NCBI GenBank assembly: GCA_949840905.1
Contig: CATKXW010000016.1
Span: 1 to 47,128, forward strand
DNA length: 47,128 bases
Reading direction: 5' to 3'
Origin: an uncultured Eggerthellaceae bacterium
GTDB taxonomy: Bacteria > Actinomycetota > Coriobacteriia > Coriobacteriales > Eggerthellaceae
The notes under the pieces are model-generated. The model searched no databases and was not told the origin of the DNA. It saw only the letters and a program-made list of their open reading frames with translations. Of the stretch, positions 14,266-46,228 are shown one piece after another. Positions within the stretch are counted from its first letter, which is position 1. Each line of letters opens with the position of its first letter. The position numbers and the translations under genes are program-made.

Positions 14266-14583
14266 TCATGAGAGCGTGCGGAAGAAGCAGGAGGTCTCGC
14301 CGGTGTGGCAAGCGGGACCGGCGGGGTCGACCAGGGCCAGCAGCGTGTCGCCATCGCAATCGTAGCGCAGCTCGATCACCTTCTGCGTATTGCCGCTGGT
14401 GGCTCCCTTGTGCCAAAGCTCCTGGCGCGAACGTGACCAGAAGACCGTCTCTCCCTTCTCCTGCGTCAAGCGCAGCGATTCGGCGTTCATCCACGCGACC
14501 ATGAGCACTTGCAACGTGCTCGCATCCTGCACCACGCACGGGATGAGCCCGTTCTTGTCGTATCTCAGCTCAGGCATGTCCAT
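14266..14583 (-). CDS. hisI: Phosphoribosyl-AMP cyclohydrolase
   Basis: 105 residues, a stand-alone HisI without a fused HisE domain. Motifs: [27 protein letters not shown] and the metal-binding DCDGDTLL with CHTG(E)TSCFF. It opens the adenine ring of phosphoribosyl-AMP, the third step of histidine synthesis, and needs Mg2+ and Zn2+. AGGAAGG lies about 8 nt before the ATG. It is the last gene of the his operon, 80 nt after hisF. A weak hairpin (14627-14653, GCAACA/TGTTGC) lies in that gap. The pyrophosphohydrolase hisE, needed just before this step, is not in the window. Confidence 0.93.
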
Positions 14584-14663: not shown

Positions 14664-15428
14664 TCATAGGCGCACCGGTATGCCTTGACTGCGCAGGTAT
14701 TCCTTCACTTGACGGATGCTCAGCTCGCCGAAATGGAACACGCTGGCAGCCAGCACGGCGTCGGCCTCGCCTTCGATGATCCCTTCCGCGAAATGCTCGA
14801 TGGAGCCCACGCCGCCTGAAGCTATCACGGGAATATCCACCGCCCGCGCCACGGCGCGCGTCAGGGCGCAATCGAAGCCATCGCGAGAGCCATCGCGGTC
14901 CATGGAGGTGAGCAGTATCTCCCCTGCTCCCCTGCGCGCTGCTTCCTCGGCCCACTGAACAGCGTCGATGCCAGTGGCCTTGCGACCGCCGGCCACGTAG
15001 ACCTCCCACTTGTTCGCATCACCTGCCACCTGCTTGGCGTCGATGGCGCACACCACCGCTTGACTGCCGAAAGCCTGGGCTGCTCGAGTGATGAGGGCGG
15101 GGTCGGCCACGGCCGCGGAGTTCACCGACACCTTGTCGGCCCCGGCAGCTATCATGGTGCGCATGGACGCCACCGTGCGGAAGCCACCGCCCACGCAATA
15201 GGGCAGCCGCAGCTCCTCGGCAGCGCGGCTCGCGAGCTCCACGGTAGTGGCACGATCGTCGGAGGTCGCTGTGATGTCGAGGAAGATGACCTCGTCAGCT
15301 CGCTCCTCATCGTAGCGCTGAGCGAGCTCGATAGGATCGCCGGCATCGCGCAAGTCGACGAAATTGACGCCCTTCACCACCCGGCCGTCCTTAACGTCCA
15401 TGCAAGGGATGACACGCTTGGCCAGCAC
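14664..15428 (-). CDS. hisF: Imidazole glycerol phosphate synthase, cyclase subunit
   Basis: 254 residues, a TIM barrel with the two catalytic aspartates in the expected places ([14 protein letters not shown] at the N-terminus, [12 protein letters not shown] near residue 170) and the phosphate sites VGGGFRT and ASGGVGS. Together with HisH it makes imidazole glycerol phosphate and AICAR from PRFAR and ammonia. Start is a GTG at 15428, with GGAGGA 8 nt upstream inside the end of hisA, so the two genes are coupled. Confidence 0.95.
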
Positions 15429-15431
15429 CGA

Positions 15432-16223
15432 TCAGTCCTCCAGCTCTTCGATCGAAAGCGGGCGAACCGCTCTCGCCGCCGCATCACTGAAGGTTATGGT
15501 TCCCCCGCAAGCCGCCACGCCGTCTTCCACCGAGAGCGTTCCCTCGTAGACCGCACGGCCTGCGATGACGCCTTCCACGGAATCGGCCACGGCCACGAGC
15601 GCTTCTAGATCCGCGACCGAGGCGACACCGCCTGAAGCGATGACCGGATGCCCGAAGGCGCGCGCCATCTCCACGTAAGCCTGGGCGTCGATGCCGGTGC
15701 GCTTGCCGTCGCGAGCGATATCGGTGTAGATGAGATGCACGAAACCGAGGTCGGCCATCTTGCTCGCGAGCTCTTCAGCGGGAACACCGCTACCCTCGGT
15801 CCAGCCCTCCACGGCCGCTTCGCCAGCTTTAGCGTCGATGCCAGCGACCAGCGCATCGGCTCCGTAGGCGCTCAACGCATTCTCGACGAAAGCCGTATCG
15901 CGCACCAGCACAGTACCCAGCACCACACGGGTCGCCCCCGCATCCATGAGCGCAGCAAGGGCTTCGGGGGTGCGAACACCACCGCCCACCTCCACCTTGA
16001 GACCGGTGGCGCTCAGAATACCCCGGATAACATCGGTGTTGGTCGGCATGCCCGTGCGGGCTCCGTCGAGGTCGACCACATGCACCCATTCTGCACCGGC
16101 CTCCTCGAACAGCTGAGCGCGACGCACCGGATCGTCATCGTAGACGGTCGCCTTACCGTAATCGCCCTGCTCCAAGCGGACCGCTTTGCCGCCGAGCAGG
16201 TCTATGGCCGGAAGGAAGTCCAT
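15432..16223 (-). CDS. hisA: ProFAR isomerase (HisA)
   Basis: 263 residues starting MDFLPAIDLLGGKAVRLEQG, the typical HisA N-terminus with the catalytic Asp. The second catalytic Asp is in IYTDIARDGKRTG, and phosphate is bound by EVGGGVRT and IASGGVAS. It performs the Amadori rearrangement of ProFAR to PRFAR. The ATG at 16223 is chosen over an in-frame ATG at 16247 because AAGGAG lies 6 nt before it. Coriobacterial HisA could in principle also serve as PriA, as in other actinobacteria; trp genes are not visible here, so this stays open. Confidence 0.93.
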   Translation of the reverse strand: MDFLPAIDLLGGKAVRLEQGDYGKATVYDDDPVRRAQLFEEAGAEWVHVVDLDGARTGMPTNTDVIRGILSATGLKVEVGGGVRTPEALAALMDAGATRVVLGTVLVRDTAFVENALSAYGADALVAGIDAKAGEAAVEGWTEGSGVPAEELASKMADLGFVHLIYTDIARDGKRTGIDAQAYVEMARAFGHPVIASGGVASVADLEALVAVADSVEGVIAGRAVYEGTLSVEDGVAACGGTITFSDAAARAVRPLSIEELED

Positions 16224-16276
16224 GGGAATCTCCTTAGAACGGTTCATGCTCTTGCTTCATCGCTCCATGGTAGCGC

Positions 16277-16909
16277 TCATGAACGCGCGATCCGCACGAA
16301 GTTGCGAAGAAGTCGCATACCTGTTTCCGAGCTCTTCTCGGGATGGAACTGAACACCGTAGGCACGCTCGCCGAAACGGACAGCGCACGGGAAAGCGATC
16401 GAATGGGTCGTTCGCGCGATAGTGGTCGCGCTCTCGGGCGCACGGTAGCTATGGGTGAAGTAGAAATGGGAGCCCGGCTCCAGTCCCTCGAAGAGCGGGT
16501 CGACGAGATCCCCTTCGACCGTGTTCCACCCGACATGGGGGATCTTGCAGCGCATCCCCGCTGCATCCTCGCGCGGCAAGCGCTCGACCGTGCCCGGGAT
16601 GAGCCCCAGGCCCGCCACCGGCTGGCCGGTCGCGCTCTCCACTCCCGCCTCGAACAGCAGATGCATCCCCAAACATATGCCCAAGAAGGGCTTGCCGGCC
16701 GCCATCGCTCCCTTCACCGCCGCGCTCAGGCCCAGCTCGTCCATGGTCTCCATCGCATCGCCGAAAGCGCCCACTCCCGGCAGCACCAACGCGTCGGCAC
16801 GGGCGAGAGCGTCCGCATCATCGGTGACGGTCACCGCAGCGCCCGCATCCGCAAGGCCCCGCTCGACGCTGCGCAGATTGCCCTTATGGTAGTCGATCAC
16901 CGCGATCAT
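16277..16909 (-). CDS. hisH: Imidazole glycerol phosphate synthase, glutaminase subunit
   Basis: 210 residues, class I glutamine amidotransferase. The nucleophile elbow is GICLGMHLLFE, with the active cysteine near residue 79, and the catalytic His and Glu are in VQFHPEKS close to the C-terminus. It supplies ammonia to HisF. AGGAGG precedes the ATG by about 7 nt. It lies 13 nt after hisB and 53 nt before hisA. Confidence 0.95.
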   Translation of the reverse strand: MIAVIDYHKGNLRSVERGLADAGAAVTVTDDADALARADALVLPGVGAFGDAMETMDELGLSAAVKGAMAAGKPFLGICLGMHLLFEAGVESATGQPVAGLGLIPGTVERLPREDAAGMRCKIPHVGWNTVEGDLVDPLFEGLEPGSHFYFTHSYRAPESATTIARTTHSIAFPCAVRFGERAYGVQFHPEKSSETGMRLLRNFVRIARS

Positions 16910-16922
16910 GACAGCAGCCCTC

Positions 16923-17510
16923 CTACAATGCGCCTTTGGTCGAAGGAAGCCGTCCTTCGATGCGCGGATCGAGGGCCACCGCTCCTCTCAGGGCGCGCCC
17001 GCAGGCCTTGAACGCTGCCTCGATGAGGTGATGGGCGTTCTCGCCGGCCAGCTGGCGGATGTGCAGCGTCAGACCAGCATTGGCAGCGAAGGCCACGAAG
17101 AACTCCTTGGCCAGCTGCGTATCGAACGATTCGATGGCTCCGATGGGCACTTCAGCCGCCCAGTAGCAGGCCCCACGTCCCGATATGTCGATCGAGGCGA
17201 GCATGAGCGCTTCGTCCATAGGGACCACCTCGGTAGCGAACCGGGCGATGCCGCGCTTGTCGGCCAAAGCCTCGGCCACGGCCATGCCGAGCACGATGCC
17301 GGTGTCTTCCACCGTGTGGTGAGCGTCTACCTGCAGATCCCCCTTTGCGCGCACGCTCAGGTCGAGCAGCCCATGGCGGCCGAGGGCATCCAACATGTGA
17401 TCGAAGAACCCGTTGCCGGTGTCGATGGCGGTCTCACCGCTACCGTCCAGATCGAGAACCACCGTGATGGCGGTCTCCTTCGTGGCCCGGCATGCTTCCG
17501 AACAACGCAT
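16923..17510 (-). CDS. hisB: Imidazoleglycerol-phosphate dehydratase
   Basis: 195 residues, dehydratase only: there is no N-terminal histidinol-phosphatase domain as in enterobacterial HisB. The metal-binding motifs are GFFDHMLDALGRHG, VDAHHTVEDTGI and the symmetric HLIEAAFKACGRAL with ENAHH. The enzyme binds manganese and forms a 24-mer in known cases. A good GGAAGGGGA site lies just upstream. It sits between hisC (36-nt gap) and hisH. The separate histidinol phosphatase is not in the window. Confidence 0.95.
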   Translation of the reverse strand: MRCSEACRATKETAITVVLDLDGSGETAIDTGNGFFDHMLDALGRHGLLDLSVRAKGDLQVDAHHTVEDTGIVLGMAVAEALADKRGIARFATEVVPMDEALMLASIDISGRGACYWAAEVPIGAIESFDTQLAKEFFVAFAANAGLTLHIRQLAGENAHHLIEAAFKACGRALRGAVALDPRIEGRLPSTKGAL

Positions 17511-17546: not shown

Positions 17547-18650
17547 TCACGCTTCTCGATCCGTGTTGAAGAAAGACTCCAAGACGGTCAAGAACCGATC
17601 GTTCTCCTCCGCCGTGCCGATGGTCGTCCGCAGCATCCCTTCCAGATAGGGAGCGTGGGAAAGGTCGCGCACTAGCACGCCCTCGTCGTAAAGGCGCTGC
17701 CACAGCGCCGCAGCCCTCTCGGGGCTCGCCTCGCCCTTCTTGTCAGATACGACGAACAGCACCCAGTTCCCATGGCTCGGGAAGGGGCGGATGTCATCGA
17801 TGGCGGCCAGCCGCGACGCTACGCGCTCGCGCTCGGTCACGATGGCCTCGATGCCGCGCTCGAAGGCAGCGCGGTTCTCATAGACCACCCGAGCGATGGC
17901 CTGGGATACCGCATTCACCGAATAGGGCTGACGCACCTTCAGCAGCTCCTCGATGACCGACGGTGCCGCCAAGACGTAGCCCAGCCGCGCGCCCGCCAAC
18001 GAGAACGCCTTGGAGAAGGTGCGCAGGATGACCAGGTTCTCATGGTGCGCTAACAGCGGGCGCACCGTCTCCCGCGAGAACTCGAAATAGGCCTCATCCA
18101 CCACCACCAGCGCATCAGAAGCGTCCAGGAGCGCCTCGATGAAGCGCGTATCGGCCCGCAGCCCGGTCGGGTTGTTCGGGCTGGCCACGATGACGTAGTC
18201 GATATCGCCGCGAGCCATGCGCGAGAGCACCGCCTCCTCATCGACGGAGAAACCAGCCTTGCGCGGGACGGTCACCACCTCAGTGTTGGTCAACCGCGCA
18301 TTGGCAGCATAGACCGAGAAGGTGGGCGGCATGTCGAGGCATCTGCGCCCTGGGCCGCCCCATGCCAAGGCCAGGTCGAACAGCAGCTCATCGCCACCGT
18401 TGCCCACTAGCACGTTGCCACGGTCCAAGCCGTTGGCTTCCGCGATCATATCCCGCAGATCGTTGGCGAGCGGATCGGGATAGCGGTTCAGGGGCACCTT
18501 AGCGATGGCCTCCATGATGCGGCCGCGCAGCTCCTCGTCTATCCCATTCGGATTCTCATTGGCCGACAGATATGCCGTTGCGGGCAGATACTTCGGGTCA
18601 TAAGGAGAGAGCCCTTGCAATTGCGCGGCGGAGGCGCGAACCCTATTCAC
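17547..18650 (-). CDS. hisC: Histidinol-phosphate aminotransferase
   Basis: About 367 residues, a fold-type I PLP enzyme. The PLP lysine is in TFSKAFSLAGARLGY; other marks are LSANENPNG, VGNGGDELLF, VASPNNPTG and VVVDEAYFEF. It converts imidazole acetol phosphate to histidinol phosphate. I place the start at the GTG at 18650, inside the last codons of hisD, with GGGGAGG 6 nt upstream; this gives an 8-bp overlap with hisD. An ATG at 18692 would overlap hisD by 50 bp and is less likely. Confidence 0.93.
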   Translation of the reverse strand: MNRVRASAAQLQGLSPYDPKYLPATAYLSANENPNGIDEELRGRIMEAIAKVPLNRYPDPLANDLRDMIAEANGLDRGNVLVGNGGDELLFDLALAWGGPGRRCLDMPPTFSVYAANARLTNTEVVTVPRKAGFSVDEEAVLSRMARGDIDYVIVASPNNPTGLRADTRFIEALLDASDALVVVDEAYFEFSRETVRPLLAHHENLVILRTFSKAFSLAGARLGYVLAAPSVIEELLKVRQPYSVNAVSQAIARVVYENRAAFERGIEAIVTERERVASRLAAIDDIRPFPSHGNWVLFVVSDKKGEASPERAAALWQRLYDEGVLVRDLSHAPYLEGMLRTTIGTAEENDRFLTVLESFFNTDREA

Positions 18651-20058
18651 CGGATGCCTCCCCAGCGGCGCGATGGGCCGCATCGAGCGCATCGAGAGCG
18701 TCGGTCACGCTGATGACGTTGGCCGGATCGATGCGCTGGGCCTCGGCGCGACGAGCGAAGGCATCGTCGCCGTTCAACAGCTTGTCGCAGCGCATGGCCA
18801 CCGACATGGCATGAGCCCACAGCCCCTCATGGCTCGCGATGCGCATGACCGCCCGCGCATCGTTGCGCAGCGCGTGGGGACTGAACGAGATGATGGAGGA
18901 CTTCTTCACGAACTCGTCCACCGACAAGGGCGAGGCGTAGCGCGCCGTGCCACCGGTGGGCAGCGTGTGGTTCGGACCCGCCACATAGTCCCCCACGGCC
19001 TCCGGCGTCCATTCGCCCAAGAATATAGCACCGGCGTTGCGGATGCCGCCCAGGTAGTCCATGGCATGGACCACGTGCATCTCCAAGTGCTCCGGAGCGA
19101 TGACGTTGACGGTCTGCAGGGCTTGATCCATGGTGGGCACCACCACTATGAGGCCCATGTCATCGAGGGACTTCCTCGTGATGTCGGCCCGCGGAGAGGC
19201 ATCCAGCAGCACCGCGAGCGCCGCTTCCACTTCCTCAGCGTAGGCCTCCGAGAACGTGACCAGATAGCAAGCGGCGAGCGGATCGTGCTCGGCCTGGGCC
19301 ATAAGGTCGATGGCCACCAGCGCCGGGTCGGCCGTCTCGTCGGCCACCACGCACACCTCCGACGGCCCGGCGATCATGTCGATGCCCACATCTCCCGATA
19401 CCGCCTTCTTCGCCGCAGCCACATAGGCGTTGCCAGGGCCGGTTATCTTATCGACGGGCGCGATGGACTCGGTACCGTAGGCCAGCGCGGCGATGGCTTG
19501 CGCGCCGCCCACGGTGTAGACCTCGGTCACCCCGGCGAGCTTGCACGCGGCCAAGATGGCAGCGTCCACGGTGCCATCTGCGGTGGGCGGCGTGACGCAC
19601 ACGATGCGCTCCACCCCCGCCACCTGGGCCGGCAGCGCGTTCATGAGCACGGTGGACGGATAGAGCGCACGACCCCCGGGCACGTAGATGCCCACGGAAT
19701 CGAGCGGGGTCACCTTCGCTCCCACGATGGCACCGTCCTCGCGGGTGAACACCCAGCTCTGCTGCACCTGCCGCTCGTGGAAGTCGCGGATCTGGCGTGC
19801 CGCATGACCGAGGGCTTCCAGGGTCTCGGGCCCCACATGCGCTACGGCCGCATCGAGGGTGACATCCGAAACGCGGAAGCTCTTCACCGCAACATGATCG
19901 AACCTCTCGGTGAGCTCGCGCAGGGCCGCATCGCCCTGGGAACGCACCTGCTCCACGATGGTCGCCGCCGCTTCGAGGGCTTCGGCGTTGAATGCTCCGG
20001 TACGGTTCAGGAAATGCTTGCTGAACGGTTCGTTGCGCTTGAGAGTGACGCGGCGCAT
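18643..20058 (-). CDS. hisD: Histidinol dehydrogenase
   Basis: 471 residues, slightly longer than the usual 430 because of an Ala/Asp-rich C-terminal tail. Motifs include VGIYVPGGRALYPSTVLMNA, TGPGNAYVAAAKK, IDMIAGPSEV and EHLEMHV, with the zinc ligands of the family (QAEHDP, ..H near GPNHTLPT). It performs the two NAD+-dependent oxidations of histidinol to histidine. The start has only a weak binding site (GAGAAAG). It follows the hisZG fusion by 44 nt and overlaps hisC. Confidence 0.95.
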   Translation of the reverse strand: MRRVTLKRNEPFSKHFLNRTGAFNAEALEAAATIVEQVRSQGDAALRELTERFDHVAVKSFRVSDVTLDAAVAHVGPETLEALGHAARQIRDFHERQVQQSWVFTREDGAIVGAKVTPLDSVGIYVPGGRALYPSTVLMNALPAQVAGVERIVCVTPPTADGTVDAAILAACKLAGVTEVYTVGGAQAIAALAYGTESIAPVDKITGPGNAYVAAAKKAVSGDVGIDMIAGPSEVCVVADETADPALVAIDLMAQAEHDPLAACYLVTFSEAYAEEVEAALAVLLDASPRADITRKSLDDMGLIVVVPTMDQALQTVNVIAPEHLEMHVVHAMDYLGGIRNAGAIFLGEWTPEAVGDYVAGPNHTLPTGGTARYASPLSVDEFVKKSSIISFSPHALRNDARAVMRIASHEGLWAHAMSVAMRCDKLLNGDDAFARRAEAQRIDPANVISVTDALDALDAAHRAAGEASGE

Positions 20059-20102: not shown

Positions 20103-21788
20103 CTACGCAGAGGCGCCCGCGATGGGAGCGTAGGCGGTCGTTTCGGCATGGGCGTGCAGAGCGCGGGCCAGCTCCGCCACGCGCGGGTCGGTGCGCAGGC
20201 TACAGGGGTTGGCGAAGAAGCGCGCCGTGGATGCGAGCACCTCATCGACCACCACCAGGTCGTTCTCGCGCAGCGTGGTGCCCGTGGCCGTGATGTCGAC
20301 GATGCACTCGGCCAAGCCCGTGAGCGGCGCGAGCTCGATGTTGCCGTGCAGCTTCACGATCTGCACCTGCATGCCGCGACGAGCGAAATGCTCAGCGGCT
20401 ATGGAGGGATACTTCGTGGCCACGCGCACCGACCCGAGCTCGCCGTAGCGACGTTGAGCCGCTCCTTGAGCATAGCGGGGCTCGGCTACGATGAAGCGAC
20501 ACGCACCGAAGCCGAGGTCCACCAGCTCCACAGTGTCAGCGGCGGCCTCTAAGAGCGAATCTTTGCCGCAGATACCGCAATCAGCCGCGCCCGCAGCCAC
20601 GAACACCGGTGCGTCGGTGGGTCGCACGATGATGTAGTCGGCCTGCGCCCCACGGATGATGAGCTGCCGACCGGGTCGGTCGAGATCGGCCGTGTCGAGG
20701 CCAGCTGCCTGCAAGCACGCCACGGCATCGGGGTTCAGCGAGCCCTTCGGCACCGCGATGCGCAAGGGCCGCGCTCCTTCGTATGCCCCGGGCACGGCGG
20801 CCTCCCGTGCGGCAAGAGCCTGTTCCAGGTAGAACGCGAAGCCCGCCGCCGGCCGCTCGGCACCGTAGGCGCCCAGCATGCGATCGTAGCGACCGCCTGA
20901 GCCCAGAGGCGAGCCAAGCCCCTGTCCATAGGCCTCGAACACCAGGCCGGTGTAATAGTCGAACGAGCTCATGACCGAGAAATCCACCAGCACCCGAGCC
21001 TGCGGGTTGAGCGATGCCACCTCATCGTAGAGCCGTTCCAGCCCGTCAAGACCCTGGGCACAGCCGAGCGGAGCGGTCAGAGAACGGACTTCGGCGATAG
21101 CCTCTCTGCCACCACGAATGCGCGGCAAGCGCCGGATGGCCGCAGCCACTGCTCGATCGCATCCGCACCGGGCCGACTCTTCGTCCACCAAACGATCGAG
21201 CTTCACGAAGTCCGACCCATGGAACCCATCGAGCACCGCGGCCTTCCATCCATCGCTCGCCCCGCTCACGTCCAGCAGCGCCCGCAGCACCGCCACCGAC
21301 GCGATGGCGAGGGTGAACGGTCCGACGCCGATGGCATCCATGGCCTCGATGAAGAGCGCTACCACTTCATGGTCGGCTTCAACGTCCCGCACCCCGATGC
21401 ACTCGATGCCTATCTGGGTGAGCTCTCGTGCGCTCGCTGCCGCGTCCCGTGCGGTCTCGCGGAAGACGCGCTGGGTATAGCGAAACCGCAACGGGCCTTC
21501 CACGTCCCCGTAGCGGGTGGCGCACAGACGCGCCACTTGCAACGTCACGTCGGGACGCAGGGCTAGAAGGTCGCCTTGGGCATCGAACAGCTTGAAGGGC
21601 GGTGCCGGCATGCGGCCCGAGGCCAAGGCCCCTTGGCGCAGCACGTCCATCACCTCCAAGGTGGGCGTCTCGATGGGCGCATAGCCGCGAGAAGCGAACA
21701 GATCCTGCACCGCGCGGGTCAGCTGTTCACGTTCGGTCGCCTCATCAGCCAAGATGTCTCGAAAGCCCGAAGGCGTGGCAAGGTTCAT
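20103..21788 (-). CDS. hisZG: HisZ-HisG fusion: ATP phosphoribosyltransferase regulatory and catalytic subunits
   Basis: One continuous 561-residue frame. Residues 1 to about 333 are HisZ, a histidyl-tRNA-synthetase-like protein (TPSGFRDILADEA, LRPDVTLQVARL, RFRYTQRVFRE, GGRYDRMLGAYG). After a linker of about 8 residues, HisG of the short form starts at about residue 342 (LRIAVPKGSLNPDAVACLQ), and the PRPP-binding motif DITATGTTLREN is at about 498-509. Short-form HisG needs HisZ for activity and histidine feedback, normally as a hetero-octamer of separate chains. No stop, frameshift or internal binding site is visible at the junction. First gene of the operon; an extended -10 lies at 21827-21835. 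Confidence 0.92.
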   Translation of the reverse strand: MNLATPSGFRDILADEATEREQLTRAVQDLFASRGYAPIETPTLEVMDVLRQGALASGRMPAPPFKLFDAQGDLLALRPDVTLQVARLCATRYGDVEGPLRFRYTQRVFRETARDAAASARELTQIGIECIGVRDVEADHEVVALFIEAMDAIGVGPFTLAIASVAVLRALLDVSGASDGWKAAVLDGFHGSDFVKLDRLVDEESARCGCDRAVAAAIRRLPRIRGGREAIAEVRSLTAPLGCAQGLDGLERLYDEVASLNPQARVLVDFSVMSSFDYYTGLVFEAYGQGLGSPLGSGGRYDRMLGAYGAERPAAGFAFYLEQALAAREAAVPGAYEGARPLRIAVPKGSLNPDAVACLQAAGLDTADLDRPGRQLIIRGAQADYIIVRPTDAPVFVAAGAADCGICGKDSLLEAAADTVELVDLGFGACRFIVAEPRYAQGAAQRRYGELGSVRVATKYPSIAAEHFARRGMQVQIVKLHGNIELAPLTGLAECIVDITATGTTLRENDLVVVDEVLASTARFFANPCSLRTDPRVAELARALHAHAETTAYAPIAGASA

Positions 21789-22358: not shown

Positions 22359-22435
22359 GTGGCTATAGTTCAGTTGGCTAGAACGCCAGATTGTGGCTCT
22401 GGAGGTCGTCGGTTCGAGTCCGATTAGCCACCCCA
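22359..22435 (+). tRNA. tRNA-His (GTG)
   Basis: A full cloverleaf: acceptor GTGGCTA pairs with TAGCCAC (22425-22431), the anticodon GTG is at 22393-22395 between CCAGA and TCTGG, and the T loop is GGTTCGAGTCC. CCA is encoded (22433-22435). The base before, G at 22358, pairs with C at 22432, giving the extra G-1:C73 pair that identifies tRNA-His. Confidence 0.97.
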
Positions 22436-46150: not shown

Positions 46151-46174
46151 GGTAGGTAGATCTCCTTTTTTCGC

Positions 46175-46228
46175 CCTTGGTTTCCGACCAAGGTGAGACG
46201 ATCACGGTATCCGCCGCGAAAAACGGCG
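46175..46228 (-). promoter_or_regulatory. rpmE leader with two hairpins (possible L31 autoregulatory leader)
   Basis: Between the putative start (near 46231) and the binding site there are two stems on the minus strand: CGCCG/CGGCG (46212-46228) and CCTTGGT/ACCAAGG (46175-46193). The second ends about 10 nt before AAGGAG. L31 leader RNAs are known in actinobacteria and other groups; I cannot tell if this one matches a described class. Confidence 0.45.

Follow-up and report, generated by a model that had tools for sequence, protein, structure and literature searches.

A fused hisZ-hisG gene in an Eggerthellaceae genome and the probable repeated origin of such fusions

ATP phosphoribosyltransferase catalyzes the first step of histidine synthesis and has HisZ as its histidine-sensing helper. 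Are the two encoded as a single chain in an uncultured, gut-type bacterium of the Eggerthellaceae and, if so, how could such a gene have arisen? We analyzed a 47,128-nucleotide stretch of its genome (the window; GenBank contig CATKXW010000016.1), in which an initial annotation, made from the sequence alone, had proposed that HisZ and HisG are joined in one protein. We conclude, with a probability of roughly 0.83, that the hisZ-hisG fusion in the window is genuine and that the gene encodes a short-form ATP phosphoribosyltransferase as a single chain. From it and its relatives we also infer how histidine would regulate the enzyme, how four chains would assemble, and where the fusion came from.

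This kind of fusion is already known: it is annotated in RefSeq as single coding sequences (CDSs) and mentioned in the literature. A 2022 study of histidine regulons (PMC9413887) names hisZ-hisG, the same two genes as in the window, among the his genes that are fused in a variety of genomes. It does so in a single sentence, without taxa, sequence, or mechanism, and hisZ goes unmentioned in the open 2007 paper that it cites. A search of the open literature (subscription journals being mostly outside it) turned up no work on the biochemistry or structure of a fused HisZ-HisG. What our analysis adds is a probable route by which the fusion arose.

The fused frame, its domains, and its setting

The minus strand from 21788 to 20103 holds one intact open reading frame (ORF) that starts with ATG, runs for 561 codons, and stops at 20103-20105; the plus strand of the same interval is interrupted by stops. 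Pfam places PF13393 at residues 8-323 (248 bits) and the HisG domain PF01634 at residues 389-544 (162 bits), and the chain ends 17 residues past the HisG match. The NCBIfam profile TIGR00070 (hisG) matches residues 342-525 at 183.8 bits (cut-off 75.75), while TIGR00443 (hisZ) matches residues 10-328 at 267.9 bits, slightly below its curated cut-off of 271.65. The HisZ part scores 110 bits higher with hisZ than with hisS (TIGR00442, 157.6 bits).

With HisZ first, both domains in one stop-free frame, and no separate copies, the ORF is a HisZ-HisG fusion, as proposed, and the junction had been placed correctly near 20770 (Table 1). Its second half is a short-form HisG (HisGS): it scores above the curated cut-off, has the PRPP loop, and is accompanied by hisZ in the same ORF, and Pfam detects PF01634 as the sole HisG domain match, without the regulatory domain found at the C terminus of the long form. 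The first half is a HisZ, with a class II HisRS-like core and hisZ as its best profile. Pfam finds no HisRS anticodon-binding domain in the ORF, HisG following directly on the HisZ core, and the genome has a separate HisRS. The description of this HisZ as complete holds for the HisRS-like core only; the C-terminal domain of about 96 residues found in unfused Coriobacteriia HisZ is missing.

Table 1. Features of the fused gene and of the his cluster that it heads. Positions are those of the window; (-) denotes the minus strand.
Feature	Residues	Position	Basis
HisZ domain, class II HisRS-like core without C-terminal domain	1-333	20790..21788 (-)	PF13393, TIGR00443, AF2 model against 3od1
Histidine loop	D269, F270, Y278, Y279, G281	20937..20984 (-)	Alignment with HisZ chains, conservation; loop position from PMC9734150
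Possible internal GTG start	Val332	20793..20795 (-)	GGGAGG upstream, duplex energy -10.3 kcal/mol; not conserved
Linker	334-341 (~8)	20766..20789 (-)	Low model confidence; relatives' linkers 4-81
Short-form HisG domain	342-561	20106..20765 (-)	TIGR00070, PF01634, PDB HisG matches
Equivalent of catalytic Arg56 of Psychrobacter arcticus HisGS	Arg374	20667..20669 (-)	Alignment with 5m8h_E and R56A variant 7z6r_C; invariant
PRPP-binding loop DITATGTTL	498-506	20271..20297 (-)	Conservation in fused relatives; alignment with solved short HisG
hisD, next gene of the cluster		18643..20058 (-)	PF00815
hisC		17547..18692 (-)	PF00155
hisB		16923..17510 (-)	PF00475
hisH		16277..16909 (-)	PF00117
hisA		15432..16247 (-)	PF00977
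hisF		14664..15428 (-)	PF00977
hisI-like		14266..14583 (-)	ORF sequence read by eye

No second HisG was found in the genome (1.98 Mb, 98% complete), and the HisZ part matches just one further ORF there, a HisRS-like one of 454 residues on contig C7. The fused gene heads a same-strand his cluster in the order hisZG-D-C-B-H-A-F-I. hisE is seemingly missing from this cluster, and the genome has a single PRA-PH match, on another contig (G000 contig C11:13923-14261). A tRNA-His gene (22359-22435, plus strand), with genes for tRNA-Lys and tRNA-Met after it, is located some 570 bp upstream of the cluster and is read in the opposite direction. An L31-Coriobacteria ribosomal protein leader (RF03128) at 46162-46194 on the minus strand fits the class assignment.

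Arg374 and the key residues of the PRPP loop and of the histidine loop with its DYYTG sequence are invariant across 37 fused relatives, and the PRPP loop aligns with DIVSTGQTL and DVVDTGNTL of solved short HisG chains. Ser350 (20739-20741) aligns with Arg32 of P. arcticus HisGS, a reported leaving-group stabilizer. Whether fused or not, nearly all Coriobacteriia HisG carry Ser, Ala, or, rarely, Lys, Thr, or Val at this position but keep the Arg56 equivalent. An AF2 single-chain model has a mean pLDDT of 84.4 and a pTM of 0.83, with low confidence at the linker (pLDDT ~59, residues 331-340). Its HisZ half matches the HisZ structure 3od1 (Z 35.2) and also covers the whole Lactococcus lactis HisZ chain. 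The HisG fold was assigned from sequence matches to PDB HisG chains, since matches to the HisZ half filled the whole-model structure searches.

Distribution among relatives

Two neighboring genes could look fused if a sequencing or assembly error had erased a stop or frameshift between them. We found no support for such an error at this locus. The other genome of the same genus has a fused ORF with 65% identity, both domains lie in one stop-free frame in about 100 loci, and fused ORFs occur in many independent isolate and metagenome assemblies, complete genomes included, as well as in a RefSeq CDS. Moreover, a simple slip would not remove the HisZ C-terminal domain. Given the recurrence in independent assemblies, we reject an artifact, which has next to no probability.

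The 80 loci from named genomes represent Adlercreutzia, Gordonibacter, Eggerthella, Slackia, Paraeggerthella, Olsenella, Thermophilibacter, and others, and all have a fused single frame except a few (contig ends or an in-frame stop). We also searched 395 genomes of the window's order; the matches listed (E to ~1e-140) were nearly all single, near-full-query matches in one open frame, and the fused ones among them belonged mainly to families f1, f2, f3, and f5. Judged by the named loci, f1 seems to be Eggerthellaceae and f2 Atopobiaceae. For f3, Coriobacteriaceae is probable, since the same fusion occurs as one RefSeq CDS in Collinsella aerofaciens. The fused ORF is present in nearly all examined Eggerthellaceae, Atopobiaceae (Olsenella), and Coriobacteriaceae (Collinsella). 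In a survey of the phylum, the top-ranked full-length matches, among the matches listed, were all Coriobacteriales. The fusion in the window is thus a typical member of a widespread arrangement, being conserved across relatives; it is common in this group, and the case itself is ordinary.

Several loci depart from this pattern. In G035, G054, and G140, open frames of more than 600 residues looked like fusions but were rejected: GC-rich DNA gave rise to long frames that overlap there, and the two genes are separate. An Adlercreutzia metagenome assembly (L019) has an in-frame stop inside the HisZ part (at approximately position 2899), reflecting either decay or an assembly error. Within one genus, the assembly breaks inside the HisZ-HisG linker (G224, with L097 and L116, and L085). 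These breaks may come from repeats; related linkers are long and rich in Ala, Gly, and Glu. One genome of the window's otherwise fused family (G219, L114) carries hisZ and hisG as two separate genes, both divergent (25% and 40% identity), probably gained by transfer.

Loss of the HisZ C-terminal domain and a probable route to fusion

Other orders of Coriobacteriia encode HisZ and HisG separately, in genes that usually overlap by 4 nt (ATGA or GTGA), and their HisZ runs on past its core by the length of the full C-terminal domain. Unfused families of the window's own order (f4, f96, f98, f99, and most of f100) have a HisZ extension of mostly 41-75 residues, or about 95 in f98. A hidden Markov model (HMM) of the full domain recognized seven of nine tested extensions from these same-order families (E values 5e-9 to 4e-4). 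It matched none of the long fused linkers tested, and the idea that these linkers hold relics of the domain was dropped. Two genomes of f100 have almost no HisZ extension yet keep separate genes: G805 (2 residues), which forms a long, uncertain branch in the tree, and G830 (21 residues).

In the fused proteins, the HisZ C-terminal domain is gone. G801 belongs to the otherwise mostly unfused f100 and is fused, with a 25-residue linker. The fused chain of family f9 is only ~475 residues long (L106, L108); its HisZ is also shorter by ~80-100 residues, lost between the regions of motifs 2 and 3, and, judged from these sequences, appears to be a minimal HisZ.

Several unfused Coriobacteriia (G041, G044, G054, G066, G070, G082, G084, G100, G128, and G140) carry, beside the hisZ/short-hisG pair, a second HisG of ~290-325 residues, the size of the long form. 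The long and short forms are usually assumed to be mutually exclusive, and these genomes run against that assumption.

A tree of concatenated HisZ and HisG places the fused proteins in three well-supported clades (f1; f2/f3/f5; f6/f8/f9) plus G801. Trees of HisZ only and of HisG only recover the same three clades; thus, the two domains traveled together. A single clade for all fused proteins was not rejected with 51 rows (p-AU 0.097), while a single clade for all but G801, with 62 rows, was rejected modestly (p-AU 0.035). Eggerthellaceae plus Atopobiaceae/Coriobacteriaceae (f1 with f2/f3/f5) as one clade was not rejected (p 0.38). Re-splitting of a fusion that had already lost the domain is unlikely, because the unfused families of the same order still carry the homologous HisZ extension. 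Taken together, the three clades, the rejected single clade, and the improbability of re-splitting give an estimate of at least three fusions within Coriobacteriia, from a topology with several weak deep branches. The fusion in Monoglobus (Clostridia) is almost certainly independent of these, and adding it brings the estimate to at least four.

The starting point would have been a translationally coupled hisZ-hisG pair from which the HisZ C-terminal domain was progressively lost. Deletion of the leftover stop/start region would then have joined the two frames, and this would have happened several times. We consider it somewhat probable that at least four fusions occurred (at least three in Coriobacteriia and one in Clostridia), those in Coriobacteriia after erosion and loss of the domain, with the steps preserved in living genomes: full domain and 4-nt overlap, half domain, no domain with two genes, and fusion. 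This graded series offers a clear natural example of a coupled gene pair repeatedly becoming one gene. It also suggests that domain loss removes the obstacle to a self-contained homotetrameric ATP phosphoribosyltransferase.

The initial annotation had added that such a fusion could mark a lineage. This is borne out in part: the fusion is found almost throughout Eggerthellaceae, Atopobiaceae, and Coriobacteriaceae, but other families of the order are unfused, and it appears to have originated repeatedly within the class and again in Clostridia.

A single-chain enzyme and its two-chain counterparts

In the known short-form ATP phosphoribosyltransferase, a HisZ tetramer lies between two HisG dimers, so that the two subunits stand at 1:1 (4:4) (PMC10795190). 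HisZ raises HisG activity via an interface ~20 Å from the active site and also transmits histidine inhibition (PMC9734150). The fused protein most likely works in the same way. Its HisZ part would still bind histidine and would activate and inhibit the HisG part as in two-chain enzymes. Four identical fused chains (4 × 59.7 kDa) would be the equivalent of the HisZ4HisG4 octamer, with the usual HisZ-HisG interface holding the assembly. The simplest reading is of an ordinary histidine-regulated enzyme, probably a homotetramer of fused chains that reproduces the 4:4 complex.

Linkers are 4-81 residues long (median 10; 95 fused loci), with an unconserved sequence and no common motif. The join thus looks like a loose tether, and the linker would act as one. 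This bears on the earlier suggestion that tethering constrains the octamer, so that allostery may differ. In such a case HisG could, for example, be locked in an activated state or tied to a defined neighboring HisZ, and regulation would be unlike that of the hetero-octamer. Permanent attachment would indeed remove the pool of free, non-activated HisG. However, linker length is free to vary, the histidine-loop residues and the Arg56 equivalent are kept, and we found no positive support for altered allostery, which we regard as improbable.

A fixed 1:1 ratio, also proposed earlier, follows if the full chain alone is made, but it would change nothing, the known octamer being 4:4 already. Internal starts could in principle add a second product, so that free HisG would be made alongside the full chain and the 1:1 ratio undone. 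The Shine-Dalgarno (SD) sequence before the GTG at Val332 (Table 1) is stronger than that of the gene's own start (-3.7 kcal/mol), and AAGGAG also precedes a TTG at residue 342. Yet linker starts at ≤ -7 kcal/mol occur in only 12 of 97 fused loci, and the same-genus relative lacks the internal SD and GTG. Strong SDs precede 13% of linker start codons, weakly above the 6% for start codons elsewhere in the same genes, and we set aside a conserved internal HisG start. Because the SD and GTG/TTG are not conserved, free HisG from an internal start is decidedly unlikely.

Cleavage of the chain after translation into HisZ and HisG, which would then form an ordinary hetero-octamer, is more doubtful still. 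The linker is flexible and modeled with low confidence, which would fit cleavage, but the range of linker lengths and the lack of a shared motif leave no common cleavage site visible. The reading as an uncleaved, histidine-regulated single-chain enzyme is preferred.

Short-form ATP phosphoribosyltransferase serves as a model system in which a synthetase-like protein can both activate and inhibit an enzyme from a distance of about 20 Å. Natural single-chain forms would ease expression at fixed stoichiometry and could test whether HisZ-HisG dissociation matters for regulation.

Comparable fused proteins already exist in RefSeq. That of Collinsella aerofaciens (WP_320677953.1) is one 571-residue CDS with both domains that heads hisD-C-B-H-A-F and shares 47% identity over 99% of the query; unlike the window's protein, it has a longer linker, and it is named hisG, with the product given only as "ATP phosphoribosyltransferase". 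The protein of Monoglobus pectinilyticus (WP_320690599.1; 556 residues) has the same domain order and a short linker, but it comes from another phylum, has 32% identity, keeps Arg at the Arg32 equivalent, and is named hisZ. Because of these two names, each genome seems to lack the half of the enzyme that its annotation leaves out.

The hetero-octamers of P. arcticus (5M8H) and Acinetobacter baumannii (8OY0) share with the fused protein the short HisG, the HisZ core, the PRPP loop, and Arg56. They differ in having separate chains, a HisZ of 388-389 residues with extra residues past the core, and Arg32, which is Ser or Ala in nearly all Coriobacteriia. The HisZ4HisG4 complex of L. lactis (1Z7M) likewise has a short HisG and a HisZ without the C-terminal domain, and this HisZ forms a working octamer; unlike the fused protein, it is built from two separate chains.
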